A stretch of DNA of 64,000 nucleotides from Microbacterium sp. Root180 (GTDB taxonomy: Bacteria > Actinomycetota > Actinomycetes > Actinomycetales > Microbacteriaceae): NCBI RefSeq assembly GCF_001428485.1, contig NZ_LMHS01000001.1, positions 620,404 through 684,403 of the forward strand. Direction: 5' to 3'. Both the position numbers and the translations under genes were made by a program. Position 1 is the stretch's first letter. The number at the start of each line of letters is the position of its first letter. Below the pieces are notes generated by a model that worked only from the letters and a program-made list of their open reading frames with translations, was not told the origin of the DNA and ran no database searches. Positions 34,841-39,746 of this stretch are shown piece after piece.

Positions 34841-37800
34841 GTGGCCGGCGACGCAGAGAACGCTGTGCACGGCAACGCGGTGACGCCCGGGGATCTGGGC
34901 CTCGCCGATCCTGACGTGACCGTGGCGCACATCGCCGACCCAGAGCGCGAGCGACTGCGGCGGGAGTCGGCCGAGCTCGGCGGACGCTCCACCCTGCTGC
35001 ACTTCACCGATGCGCTGGACTCGTCGATCGAGATCACCAAGGCGCACCCCGGAAGCCTTCCGCAGTTCATCACCGGGCGTTCGACCCTGCTGTCGAACCT
35101 GTTCCGCGACGAGGTGGCCCTGCGCAATGCCCGGCTCGCCGCCGAGCGCATCACCGCCAAGAACGTCGAGCTGCGCACCACGCGCGGCCTCGAGTCGGTG
35201 CACCTCGCCGTCGGCCTCGCCGAATGGCGCATCGGCGGCCTCGAATGCTCGGCGCCGATCCTGCTGCGGCCCCTCGCCATCCGCCGCCACCATGCCGACT
35301 TCGAGCTCAAGCTCCACGGATCGTTCATCGTCAACCCCGAGCTGGTGCGCGCCATGCTCGCCCATTTCTCGATCGAACTCGACGGCGCCGGCCTCGCCGC
35401 GCTCGCCTACGAGGGCGGCGTCTTCAAGCCGCAGCCCGTGATCGATCACCTGCGCGCCCTCACGTCGTGGATCGACTCCTACACCGTGAAGCCCCGCCTT
35501 CTCGTCTCGAGCTTCGCCGACGTCGCCGGGGCCATGACCCGCGACGCCGCCGACCTCGACCACCCGATCCTCAACGCGCTCGCCGGTCACCCGGCCGATC
35601 GCGAGACGCTGACGATGCACCGCGACACCGTCGAGCCCGCGAGCCCCGACGAGAGAGCGCCCGCCGCCGACACGCTCCTCCTCGATGCGGACTCCGAGCA
35701 GGAGCGCGTGCTCGCCCGCATCGCGGCCGGCCAGTCGCTCGCGGTGCACACCCTCCCCGGCACCGGCGGCACCCAGACCGTGATCAACGCCGTCGGCGCG
35801 CTCGTGCGCGACGGCAAGCGCGTGCTCGTCGTGAGCGCCCGCAGCTCGACGATCGACGGCATCCGTCACCGCCTCGCGGGCATCGGGCTTCCGGGCCTCG
35901 CCGTGTCCCCCCGTCGCCTGCGCGCCGACCTCATCCGCGCGATCGGCCGCAATGAGAAGGCCGAGAAGCCCAAGGTCGCCGACATCGATGACGCTCTCGT
36001 GCGCCTTCGCGGCGTGCTGCGCGACTATCGCGGAGCGGTCACCGCGCAGCATCCGTCGCTCGATGTGTCGGTGCTCGAGATCCTTCGTGCGCTCGCCACC
36101 CTGTCCGGGCGTGAGACGCCGCCGTCCACCGCGGCGCGGTTCGGTCACGGCACACTCGAGCGGCTCGCTCACACGCGCGCCGAGGCCGCGGGCAAGCTCG
36201 CCGCCGCCGCACGCCTGGGGGAGTTCCGCTTCGGCCCCGACGACTCGCCCTGGTACGGCGTCTCGTTTGCCACGACCGAAGAAGCCCGGGCCGCCCACGC
36301 GCTCGCGGGCAAGCTCCAGCGCAGCGACCTGCCGAGCCTGCTCGAGCGGGGGTATGCGCTTATCGCGCAGACGCGCATGCGGCCGTTCCAGACCATCTCC
36401 GAGCTCGGCGCGTACCTGCGGGTGCTGCAGGGCATCCGCGACTCGCTCGATAAGTTCAGCCTGACCGTGTTCGAGCGTCCGCTGGGCGAGCTGATCCAGG
36501 CGCACGGCCCTCGCCGCGACGCCCCGTCGATGAGCGGACCGAACCGCCGTCGCCTGCGCCGCCTCTCCCGCGAGTACGTGCGCCCGGGCGTGCACGTGCC
36601 CGACATGTACGAGGCGCTCGTGCGCATCCAGCAGCAGCGCACGGAGTGGCAGCGCTTCGTCGAGCCCGGGGTCACCCCCGAGGTGCCGATCGGCCTGTCC
36701 GACGTGCACGTCGCGTGGTCACGCGTCGAGGCCGAACTCGGCGAACTCGACGCGATCCTCGGACGCGCCGACCCCGACCGCCTCGCGACCCTGCCCGTGA
36801 AGCAGCTCGTGCGCACGCTCGCCGGGCTCGCCGCCGACTCCGACGTGTTCGACAACCTCAAGGAGCGCGCGACGCTGCGCACCGAGCTCGCTGCGCTGGG
36901 CCTCGAGCCGCTGCTCACCGAGCTGTCGGTGCGGCACGTGCCCGAGGAACTCGTGGCCGACGAACTCGAGTTCGCGTGGTGGCAGTCCGCGCTGGAGCAG
37001 CTGCTGCGCAGCGACCGTGCCGTCCTCGGCGCCAACACGGCCGTGGTCGACCGTCTGGAGCGCGACTTCCGTCTCGTCGACGAGGCGCATGCCGCGGCAT
37101 CCGGACCGCTTCTCGCCGCGCAGCTCGCGACGCAGTGGCGCATCGGCATCGTCGACGAGCCCGACGAAGCTTCCGCGCTCAAGCTCGCGCTGAAGAACGG
37201 CGAGGTCACCCCTGCCCGCCTCGCCGAGGTCGCGCCGACGCTCTCGCGCACGCTCGCGCCGGTGTGGCTCGCCTCTCCCTACGACGTTCCGCTCCTCCCG
37301 TCGGACGCCTTCGACGTGGTCGTGATCGCGGATGCCGCGGCCCTGTGCCTCGCGGAGGCCGCCCCTGCGCTGCGCCGCGCGCGGCAGGTCGTCGTGTTCG
37401 GCGACCCCGTCACGCAGAAGCCGACGCCGTTCCGCGTGGCCGCCGGAGTGCCTGCGGACGCGCCCGAGGCATCCGAGTTCGACACGCCGTTCGACGCGGC
37501 GAGCGTGTTCGAGCGGCTGGCCGAGCTGCTTCCCGTCGAGACGCTCACCCGCAGCTACCGTGCCGGCGGTGAGGACCTGGCCGAGCTCGTCAACGACGCG
37601 TTCTACGGCGGCGAGCTCGTGTCGCTCCCGTGGGCCGGCTCGTACCTCGGACGCGGCAGCCTCAGCGTGGACTACGTCGAAGGCGGCACGGGAGCCCCCG
37701 ACCCCGTCACCGGCGCCGTCGAGAGCCCCGACGCCGAAGTACGCCGCGTCGTCACGCTCGTCGTGGAGCACGCCGTCAACCGCGGCTCGGAGTCGCTCAT

Positions 37801-38551
37801 GGTCGTCACCGCGAGCACGCGTCACGCCGAGCGCATCCGCGCGGCGGTCGAGGCAGCCTTCGCCGGACGTTCGGATGTCGCGGACTTCCTCTCGCGCGAC
37901 ACGGCCGAGCCGTTCGCGGTGCTGAGCCTCGAGGAGTCCGTCGCTGAGAGCCGCGACCGCGTGATCTTCTCGCTCGGATTCGGGCTCACGAAGCACGGAC
38001 GTGTGCTCAGCGACTTCGGCGACCTGTCGACGCCCGACGGTGAGCGACTCCTGACGGTGGGTATGACGCGGGCCCGGCGGTCGATGGTGATCGTGTCGTC
38101 CATCCGCCCCTCGTCCTTCGACGATGGGCGCCTCGAGCACGGCGCCGCGACCCTCATGTCGATCCTCGGCGGGATCGCCGCCCGATCGCGGGACGCCCGC
38201 CTCGAAGACCTCGCCGACCCGCTGACGCTCGGGCTCGCCCGGGAGCTGCGCCGTCTCGGACTCTCCGTCGACGTGCACTACCGCGGACTGCTCCCGCTCG
38301 TCGCGCAGTACGACGGCAAGGCGGTCGTGGTGGAGAGCGACCCCGAGACGATCGGCGAATCGCTGCGCGAGTCGCTGCGTCTGCGTCCTCAGATCCTGCG
38401 ACGTCTCGGCTGGCACTACGTGCGCGTGCACTCGTTCGACCTGTACAGCGACCCTGCGGGCGTCGCGCAGCGCATCGCGACGATGCTCGGCCTGCCGCCG
38501 GACGCGCCGCGCGTCGAGTCAGACACGCAGCCGCTCGATGTCTTCGACTGA
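34841..38551 (+). CDS. Giant degenerate SF1-helicase-like protein with C-terminal restriction-endonuclease-like domain
   Basis: 1236 residues from the GTG at 34841 (a GTG at 34748 is also in frame). Residues about 295-1110 follow an SF1 (UPF1-like) helicase layout: P-loop region LPGTGGTQT (306-312), a Walker B region VVVIADAAAL (D831), VVFGDPVTQKP, LTRSYRAGGEDLAELVNDAFYGGEL, and GERLLTVGMTRARRSMVIVSS. The P-loop lysine is Gly310 and the DE pair of Walker B is DA, so ATP hydrolysis is doubtful. Residues about 1140-1215 resemble the MTES_1575 endonuclease-like domain (VVVESDP...ILRRLGWHYVRVHSFDLYSDP) with part of the acidic triad missing. It overlaps the next small gene by 14 bases. Function unknown. 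Confidence 0.8.
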   Translation: MAGDAENAVHGNAVTPGDLGLADPDVTVAHIADPERERLRRESAELGGRSTLLHFTDALDSSIEITKAHPGSLPQFITGRSTLLSNLFRDEVALRNARLAAERITAKNVELRTTRGLESVHLAVGLAEWRIGGLECSAPILLRPLAIRRHHADFELKLHGSFIVNPELVRAMLAHFSIELDGAGLAALAYEGGVFKPQPVIDHLRALTSWIDSYTVKPRLLVSSFADVAGAMTRDAADLDHPILNALAGHPADRETLTMHRDTVEPASPDERAPAADTLLLDADSEQERVLARIAAGQSLAVHTLPGTGGTQTVINAVGALVRDGKRVLVVSARSSTIDGIRHRLAGIGLPGLAVSPRRLRADLIRAIGRNEKAEKPKVADIDDALVRLRGVLRDYRGAVTAQHPSLDVSVLEILRALATLSGRETPPSTAARFGHGTLERLAHTRAEAAGKLAAAARLGEFRFGPDDSPWYGVSFATTEEARAAHALAGKLQRSDLPSLLERGYALIAQTRMRPFQTISELGAYLRVLQGIRDSLDKFSLTVFERPLGELIQAHGPRRDAPSMSGPNRRRLRRLSREYVRPGVHVPDMYEALVRIQQQRTEWQRFVEPGVTPEVPIGLSDVHVAWSRVEAELGELDAILGRADPDRLATLPVKQLVRTLAGLAADSDVFDNLKERATLRTELAALGLEPLLTELSVRHVPEELVADELEFAWWQSALEQLLRSDRAVLGANTAVVDRLERDFRLVDEAHAAASGPLLAAQLATQWRIGIVDEPDEASALKLALKNGEVTPARLAEVAPTLSRTLAPVWLASPYDVPLLPSDAFDVVVIADAAALCLAEAAPALRRARQVVVFGDPVTQKPTPFRVAAGVPADAPEASEFDTPFDAASVFERLAELLPVETLTRSYRAGGEDLAELVNDAFYGGELVSLPWAGSYLGRGSLSVDYVEGGTGAPDPVTGAVESPDAEVRRVVTLVVEHAVNRGSESLMVVTASTRHAERIRAAVEAAFAGRSDVADFLSRDTAEPFAVLSLEESVAESRDRVIFSLGFGLTKHGRVLSDFGDLSTPDGERLLTVGMTRARRSMVIVSSIRPSSFDDGRLEHGAATLMSILGGIAARSRDARLEDLADPLTLGLARELRRLGLSVDVHYRGLLPLVAQYDGKAVVVESDPETIGESLRESLRLRPQILRRLGWHYVRVHSFDLYSDPAGVAQRIATMLGLPPDAPRVESDTQPLDVFD

Positions 38552-38735
38552 CCGCCAGCGCATCGAGCGGGTGCCCGGCTCACGCCGGGTGAAGCTCACT
38601 CCTGCCCCCGGCACGAGCGCCGAGCCGGTGCCGGGCGATGAGGCGCCGGCGGACGTCACCGGGGACGCGGCATCCGGCGGCGCTTCCGGCCCGAACGACG
38701 ACCGCCTGCGGCAGGACGTCCCGCCCCACTACTGA
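38538..38735 (+). CDS. Small conserved protein coupled to the helicase-like gene
   Basis: 65 residues. A basic N-terminus (RQRIERVPGSRRVKLTPAPGT) leads through an acidic low-complexity middle to a conserved-looking tail NDDRLRQDVPPHY. From memory, short actinobacterial proteins with a VPGS..VKLTPAPG start and an NDxxLxxDxPPHW/Y tail sit beside this helicase-like gene in many genomes; this was not searched. The ATG lies inside the last codons of the large gene, which indicates coupling. Confidence 0.7.
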   Translation: MSSTDRQRIERVPGSRRVKLTPAPGTSAEPVPGDEAPADVTGDAASGGASGPNDDRLRQDVPPHY

Positions 38736-38981: not shown

Positions 38982-39395
38982 TCAGGCCTTCGGCTGCGCG
39001 GCGAGCAGGTCGCGGATCTGAATGAGCAGCTCCTGCTCGGTGGGGAGGTCGGATGCCTCCTCCTCGGGGATGCCGCGCTTGGCGGCGGCCCGCTCCTTGA
39101 AGCGGTTCATGGGGTATACGAAGACGAAGTACACGACGACCGCGACGGCGAGGAAGTTGATGATCGCGCCGAGGATCATGCCGAACCCGAAGAACACCTC
39201 GTCGCCGGCCAGGTTGGTCACCGTCCAGCCGACCTGGTCGAGGCTGCCCGCGTTGAAGACGAGTGCGATCAGGGGGTTGATCAAGCCCGCGACGATCTGG
39301 TTGACGATCAACGTGAATGCGGCGCCGATGACGACCGCGACAGCGAGGTCGATGACGTTGCCGCGGAGGATGAATTCCTTGAAGCCTTTGATCAT
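38982..39395 (-). CDS. mscL: Large-conductance mechanosensitive channel
   Basis: 137 residues. MIKGFKEFILRGNVIDLAVAVVIGAAFTLIVNQIVAGLINPL is the typical N-terminus and first membrane helix; the second helix is GAIINFLAVAVVVYFVFVYPMNRFKER, followed by a cytoplasmic helix bundle. MscL opens under membrane tension to release solutes on sudden dilution. Ribosome site GAGGAGCATC-type bases precede the ATG at 39395. Confidence 0.96.
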   Translation of the reverse strand: MIKGFKEFILRGNVIDLAVAVVIGAAFTLIVNQIVAGLINPLIALVFNAGSLDQVGWTVTNLAGDEVFFGFGMILGAIINFLAVAVVVYFVFVYPMNRFKERAAAKRGIPEEEASDLPTEQELLIQIRDLLAAQPKA

Positions 39396-39428: not shown

Positions 39429-39746
39429 TCAGGTCCCGGTCGAGGCGGGCGAGGACTTCGCCTCGGTCTTCGATGATGCCGAAGTCGACGAGGTGCCGCC
39501 ACTCGACGACGAACCGCCGGCCGCGGTGGAGCCGCCGGCCGAGGCATCCGAGCCACCCTTCGATCCCGCGGCTCGCGAGTCCGTGCGATAGAAGCCCGAG
39601 CCGTTGAAAGTGACGCCGATCGAGCCGTACTCCTTTCGCAGCGGCCCGCCGCACTCGGGGCACTCGGTGAGGGTCGGGTCGGCGAAGGACTGAACCGCGT
39701 CGAAGCGGTGGCCGCACTGCTTGCAGGCGTAGGCGTAGGTCGGCAT
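39429..39746 (-). CDS. FmdB-family zinc ribbon protein
   Basis: 105 residues. MPTYAYACKQCGHRFDAVQSFADPTLTECPECGGPLRK is the FmdB-type zinc ribbon with CxxC pairs at about residues 8-11 and 29-32, followed by VTFNGSGFYRTD and a Ser/Gly/Thr-rich tail. The family is associated with formamidase regulators but its role is not established. It lies 14 bases after the cyclo-ligase stop and is probably co-transcribed. Confidence 0.9.
   Translation of the reverse strand: MPTYAYACKQCGHRFDAVQSFADPTLTECPECGGPLRKEYGSIGVTFNGSGFYRTDSRAAGSKGGSDASAGGSTAAGGSSSSGGTSSTSASSKTEAKSSPASTGT

Follow-up and report, generated by a model that had tools for sequence, protein, structure and literature searches.

A candidate domesticated helicase-nuclease without catalytic residues and its small PPHW neighbour at a conserved locus of Actinomycetales

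Why would a bacterial lineage keep a full-length helicase-nuclease gene whose catalytic motifs are broken? This question is raised by a two-gene locus of Microbacterium sp. Root180, located in a stretch of 64,000 nucleotides of contig NZ_LMHS01000001.1 (positions 620,404 to 684,403; hereafter the window), where a large gene for a pseudo-helicase/pseudo-nuclease of 1236 residues (34841..38551) is followed by a gene for a protein of 65 residues (38538..38735). Both genes and all domains described below lie on the forward strand unless stated otherwise. An initial annotation made from the letters alone had regarded the pair as the best candidate of the window for an undescribed system, with the small protein as its possible effector. 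We found instead that the large gene is a vertically inherited core gene of the order and not a mobile system. We consider it somewhat probable that its product comes from the DUF4011-SF1B (superfamily 1B) helicase-Vsr nuclease clan, which also contains the anti-phage proteins Hhe and ProA, was domesticated and lost its catalytic activity, and now acts as a nucleic-acid scaffold or sensor with a PPHW docking peptide. The historical part of this reading is strongly supported, whereas a non-catalytic role in nucleic-acid binding, as a scaffold or a sensor, and the physical docking of the peptide are suggested by the retained fold, the fusion record, and an analogy with RecC.

Broken motifs in a retained and selected fold

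The large open reading frame runs from a GTG at 34841 to a stop codon at 38549-38551 without an internal stop. Its start codon is uncertain, and homology to relatives begins at approximately residues 13-45. The GC content by codon position (0.76/0.49/0.91 for the large gene and 0.77/0.62/0.88 for the small gene) is typical of the coding genes of this genome. Besides the open reading frame, the assignment of the product rests on weak domain matches, on matches to PDC-S37, ProA, and Hhe, and on a UPF1-like model. The layout of a UPF1-type superfamily 1 helicase, as initially proposed, is borne out by sequence profile searches, which relate the helicase core to SMUBP-2, UPF1, DNA2, and SEN1, and by a structural model of residues 267-1236 (970 residues; mean predicted local distance difference test score, pLDDT, 86.3), with Z scores of 18.6 to Ighmbp2 and approximately 18 to UPF1. 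In the model, a complete UPF1-like two-RecA core is accompanied by a large helical insert and, at the C-terminus, by a domain resembling a nuclease; a full fold is thus predicted for the dead protein. The model of an intact fused orthologue reached a Z score of 24.8 to both UPF1 and Ighmbp2.

Alignment with intact orthologues confirmed the loss of the ATPase residues. In motif I (LPGTGGTQT, residues 305-313, 35753..35779), Gly310 occupies the column of the Lys in GPPGTGKSQT, and in motif II (VVIADAAAL, residues 827-835, 37318..37344) ADA stands for the DEA of VVIFDEASQ, the catalytic Glu being gone whether the alignment is gapless (A-D) or slipped by one residue (D-A). The missing first acidic residue of the C-terminal domain was likewise verified: in the degenerate MTES_1575 (Vsr-type) nuclease domain (38255..38485), recognized by a Pfam match of 24.3 bits (cut-off 38.2), by alignment, and by a strand-strand-strand-helix arrangement in the model, Pro replaces the first Asp (GLLPLV for IDLAV) while E-x-D is kept as VESD, which leaves the Asp...Glu-x-Asp triad incomplete. 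The matches to AAA_11/AAA_12 and PF18741 expected by the initial annotation were found, but all lie below gathering cut-offs, with 22.3 bits for AAA_12 and 17.1 bits for AAA_11, and the same holds for a DUF4011-like stretch (residues 100-170, 35138..35350; 18.6 bits, cut-off 22.2). An intact orthologue from the same locus in another genome (L157) exceeds the Pfam cut-offs for all four families.

For two pairs with low nonsynonymous divergence (dN) within the genus, the ratio of nonsynonymous to synonymous divergence (dN/dS) was 0.035 and 0.068, while other genus pairs with higher dN gave approximately 0.22-0.39 at dS 0.5-0.6, a range in which the simple method is less reliable. No stops were observed within the listed matches of approximately 150 genomes, except for one flagged TGA (locus L029, G080:C3:633986-637648), where the frame is open over query residues 1-1233 and the flag is probably the terminal stop. 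The claim that the gene has been kept free of stops and frameshifts is thus supported by full-length reading frames and low dN/dS in the low-dN pairs. All 20 genus members that were aligned share the dead loop LPGTGGTQT without any difference; conservation of its Gly, put forward for testing at the outset, therefore holds for the genus, but other families carry other letters or the intact Lys. Column conservation (120 orthologues compared with 5 outgroup rows) showed that six residues, A554, R569, G583, L593, R698, and P898, are fixed at 91-100% whether the orthologue is live or dead, but not in the outgroup; the values were 99% for R569, 100% for L593, and 99% for A554. All of these except P898 belong to a helical middle region (36500..36940), suggesting that this region serves a function common to the active and inactive forms.

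Vertical inheritance and repeated loss at a fixed locus

The large gene was intact in all 19 relatives of a first search. When the order was sampled evenly, a match was present in 243 of 248 genomes (231 of the 233 good ones), covering 84 of 85 genera and 20 families, while in a sample of the phylum the distribution was patchy (32 of 296 genomes, order members counted in). Named loci identified Intrasporangiaceae, Dermacoccaceae, Micrococcaceae, Cellulomonadaceae, Brevibacteriaceae, Promicromonosporaceae, Jonesiaceae, and Kineosporiaceae among the families of the order. Gene content points to Microbacteriaceae as the family of the window, and family f102 appears to be Micromonosporaceae. A gene tree of 65 rows agrees with the families (18 changes, with a minimum of 17). 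Two genomes of 0.8 and 0.9 Mb that are 99-100% complete retain a version of approximately 1200 residues as an open reading frame, and at these loci (L124 and L125) the dead helicase, a diverged LPPHF peptide, mscL, and fmdB all occur together.

The gene pair faces mscL (38982..39395, reverse strand), beyond which lies a gene for an FmdB-type zinc-ribbon protein (39429..39746, reverse strand). Homology-based synteny across families shows that this neighbourhood is common to nearly all families and to the reduced genomes, that it extends to those families beyond the order in which the small gene occurs, and that the fixed locus has no defence neighbours. The mscL/fmdB neighbours, the PPHW peptide, and the group-specific R569 and L593 define an orthologous group, and neither the patchy presence nor the defence neighbours of a mobile defence system were observed for this nearly universal gene.

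The motifs read GPPGTGKSQT, FDEAS, and IDLAV/ETDG in outgroup relatives that belong to other classes, and same-locus orthologues in Knoellia, Phycicoccus, Pedococcus, Leekyejoonella, and one further family (f5) retain intact ATPase and nuclease motifs. Intact and dead orthologues thus occupy the same locus, sometimes within one family. The remaining families lack intact motifs, each with its own replacement letters: GTGGTQT in the family of the window, GTGQTQT in Arthrobacter relatives, GTGATQ or GTGNTQ in f7, APTGSDVTGT in Cellulomonas, and GTGRTQT together with VEDAG in f102. Single lineages inside the intact clade (L083, L108, L133, L139, and L140) have also lost the motifs. An intact GKT among close relatives, initially named as grounds for rejecting the proposal, was not found within the genus and appears only at the level of other families, where the intact GKS represents the ancestral state, so that the finding is not refuted. 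Considering that the loss extends across the whole family of the window and that older lineages of the order have intact motifs, the loss must have been repeated within the order.

Parsimony on a tree inferred from 125 rows with the catalytic columns left out requires at least 4 changes of the ATPase state, which is an estimate only because the tree was a quick LG+G4 reconstruction with long-branch warnings, and 9 changes of the nuclease state; the intact outgroups make losses the natural reading of these changes. A smaller mixture-model tree without the f102 rows gave 3 ATPase losses. A separate ATPase loss in every family is unsupported, as only 4 changes are required. Both activities have intact residues in 23 rows and lost ones in 88, whereas the ATPase residues are lost with nuclease acids kept in 13 and the reverse is seen in 1. 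The two losses mostly coincide, with only 2 independent pairs, too few for a test of linkage. Among 101 dead rows, the motif I Lys, motif II Glu, and motif III Gln are present in 0%, 4%, and 6%, compared with 95-100% each among 19 live orthologues. The motif V Gln and Glu are also mostly absent from dead rows, and the Lys column contains 13 other letters across dead orthologues. Since motifs I, II, III, and V were hit together, the whole ATP cycle appears to have been dismantled rather than one residue.

The small PPHW protein

The small gene extends from an ATG at 38538 to a stop codon ending at 38735 and shares 14 bases with the end of the large gene, as originally described. Its product is short and apparently disordered, with a basic head (GSRRVKL) and a tail, NDDRLRQDVPPHY, and is conserved in the genus, the order, and the class. 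It had no match in Pfam, NCBIfam, or PADLOC and no solved relative. In a survey of approximately 190 order loci with enough flanking sequence (some genomes counted twice), nearly every locus has a peptide with a PPHW, PPHY, or closely similar ending that either follows the large gene immediately or is fused to it, so that the anticipated conservation of the small neighbour was observed. At 78 of these loci the peptide is fused in frame to the C-terminus of the helicase, and the tail motif is present in every fusion. The fused form is found in most Micrococcaceae, in part of Intrasporangiaceae and f14, and in all of f10 and f19, and 9 changes between the fused and separate forms were counted on the tree. 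In family f20, the small gene is 2-5 kb downstream of the large gene on the same strand, and in f102, which has both, a distance of 0.3-4 kb separates the two genes.

A profile of the PPHW tail matched 165 of 247 genomes of the class, nearly always with one copy each, and the small protein of the window was its top match across its own genome (E value 7.5e-4). Together with the conserved downstream or fused position, these results led us to reject the possibility that the small reading frame is a chance frame. Seven Streptomyces-like genomes have the small gene without the helicase, convergent with mscL and near fmdB; at these loci (L249-L255), a protein of 50-60 residues ending in DEKPPHH(I/L) adjoins mscL. 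Because the small gene occurs across the class and also without the helicase, the peptide predates the helicase or at the least does not depend on it; this disfavours an effector role and favours an adaptor with more than one partner. The initial suggestion of a conflict-system effector is also hard to reconcile with a peptide that is often just the C-terminal tail of the helicase.

Proposed role, alternatives, and comparison with known systems

The results support a history in which a helicase-nuclease became fixed beside the older small-protein gene at the mscL-fmdB locus in an ancestor of the order; this event probably preceded the divergence from a Micromonosporaceae-like family. Vertical inheritance followed, with repeated loss of ATPase and nuclease residues while purifying selection held the fold, the lineage-specific middle region, and the small partner. 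The resulting protein would no longer turn over ATP or cut. RecC, a UvrD/RecB-type part of RecBCD, reuses inactive helicase and nuclease folds for reading DNA, and it serves here as a working analogy without any claim of homology: the two-RecA core and the dead nuclease may form a comparable nucleic-acid-binding scaffold or sensor. The disordered acidic/basic PPHW/PPHY peptide would then be a docking module, operating in cis in the fusions and in trans as a separate protein, that joins the large protein to itself or to a further partner. The structural or sensing role put forward at the outset is the better reading. More tentatively, and with the balance of our judgement still on the side of doubt, the pair may represent a new core component of Actinomycetes, in which a defence-derived helicase-nuclease became, on at least four independent occasions, a dead scaffold or sensor that works with a PPHW peptide of greater age and class-wide occurrence, the non-catalytic function being the selected trait. 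Mobility and a short life are generally expected of defence proteins, but here a relative of anti-phage proteins is nearly universal and vertical in a whole order and is retained even in 0.8 Mb genomes while its catalytic motifs were dismantled in parallel. Live and dead orthologues at one locus make the function of a former helicase directly testable, and the large gene provides a handle for finding the role of an undescribed class-wide small protein.

Several observations weigh against the scaffold or sensor reading. The sequence diverges fast between families (approximately 30% identity), the number of ATPase losses is an estimate, and the tail of a natural fusion is modelled as a short helix (pLDDT approximately 60) behind a disordered linker. 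Micrococcaceae and Kineosporia retain three nuclease acids despite ATPase loss, and as judged from these residues the nuclease half may still be working there. Most of the Micrococcaceae loci (L163-L228) have D...E-x-D, and in every one of them Gln replaces the motif I Lys. The small gene is helicase-free in the Streptomyces-like genomes and up to approximately 4-5 kb away in some families, so it may have another role or its link with the helicase may be partly synteny. The latter point leads to an alternative that concerns only the partner claim, namely that the small protein is an old mscL-locus gene without a physical partner and that fusions are stop-codon losses between neighbours. The helicase-free loci and the spacing in f102 and f20 fit this explanation, but the genes overlap or adjoin in most families, and the many fused loci, the repeated changes between fused and separate states, and the tail motif in every fusion make it doubtful.

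The fast divergence also suits a protein that is still immune, a non-catalytic core guard or infection sensor that signals to another effector and whose intact relatives are the catalytic form. The nearest families are anti-phage, and the genus of the window contains a full-length ProA relative above the cut-off (L131). Such a guard seems unlikely for a single-copy, vertical, and nearly universal gene at a locus without defence neighbours that persists in genomes of 0.8-0.9 Mb. Another explanation is that the catalytic motifs were merely rewritten and ATP is still bound or hydrolysed through an unusual motif set. Dead rows keep the Q-motif Gln in 81% and the motif III Asp in 98%, f102 has Arg at the Lys column, and the window protein retains motif VI (TRAR) and motif IV (YR); however, the joint loss of the motif I Lys, motif II Glu, motif III Gln, and motif V Gln and Glu and the drift of the Lys column render this very improbable. 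The broken motifs and fast divergence might finally suggest a decaying relic of a defence gene, which we rejected as hardly credible considering the stop-free frames among the listed matches (the one TGA flag aside), the low dN/dS (0.035-0.07), the full predicted fold, and the near universality.

The scaffold or sensor candidate is related to several known families. No description of the gene pair was found in the open literature, subscription papers being outside the search. An essential-gene study of Bifidobacterium breve lists 53 hypothetical genes as essential (PMC5514069). The strongest match was to PDC-S37 of PADLOC (5e-85, 284.4 bits; best stretch at profile positions 755-1337 of 1550), for which an intact orthologue scored 849.7 bits, followed by ProA (NF058533; 4e-82, 276.6 bits against a cut-off of 1500, the positive control L131 reaching 1715) and Hhe (NF042953; 1e-40, 138.7 bits against a cut-off of 2000). 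As these scores fall below the cut-offs for ProA and Hhe and the catalytic features of the helicase and the MTES_1575 nuclease are absent, we did not assign the window protein to these systems, although it belongs to the same clan as Hhe, ProA, and PDC-S37. It shares homology over residues of approximately 600-1216 and the order DUF4011-SF1-Vsr with ProA/PDC-S37 but, unlike ProA, it is shorter, catalytically dead, and encoded by a core gene with a PPHW partner. Hhe, a DUF4011 anti-phage protein, has a homologous helicase region with intact motifs, in contrast to the dead ones here. The UPF1-like SF1B helicases (Ighmbp2/SMUBP-2, UPF1, SEN1, and DNA2) share the two-RecA fold but are active ATPases, whereas the window protein lacks the motif I Lys and motif II Asp-Glu of an active enzyme and has a large helical insert and a dead nuclease. 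MTES_1575 of Microbacterium testaceum, a bacterium probably of the same family as the host of the window, is the superfamily I helicase with a Vsr restriction endonuclease after which PF18741 was named, and it is a multidomain protein of approximately 2160 residues with HEPN, transglutaminase, and wHTH domains, described as active (PMC3710099). It is far larger than the window protein, and its size corresponds to the ProA-type L131. The latter (L131:1829-8416) has 2196 residues with intact GPPGTGKSQT and FDEASQ, and its genome (G007) holds both this protein and the dead core gene. In Pseudomonas aeruginosa, cDHS1 contains a large DUF4011 gene that is core in all isolates there and has a small hypothetical gene conserved at its side (PMC10250203); it may present a parallel to the pairing of a core DUF4011 protein with a small neighbour.

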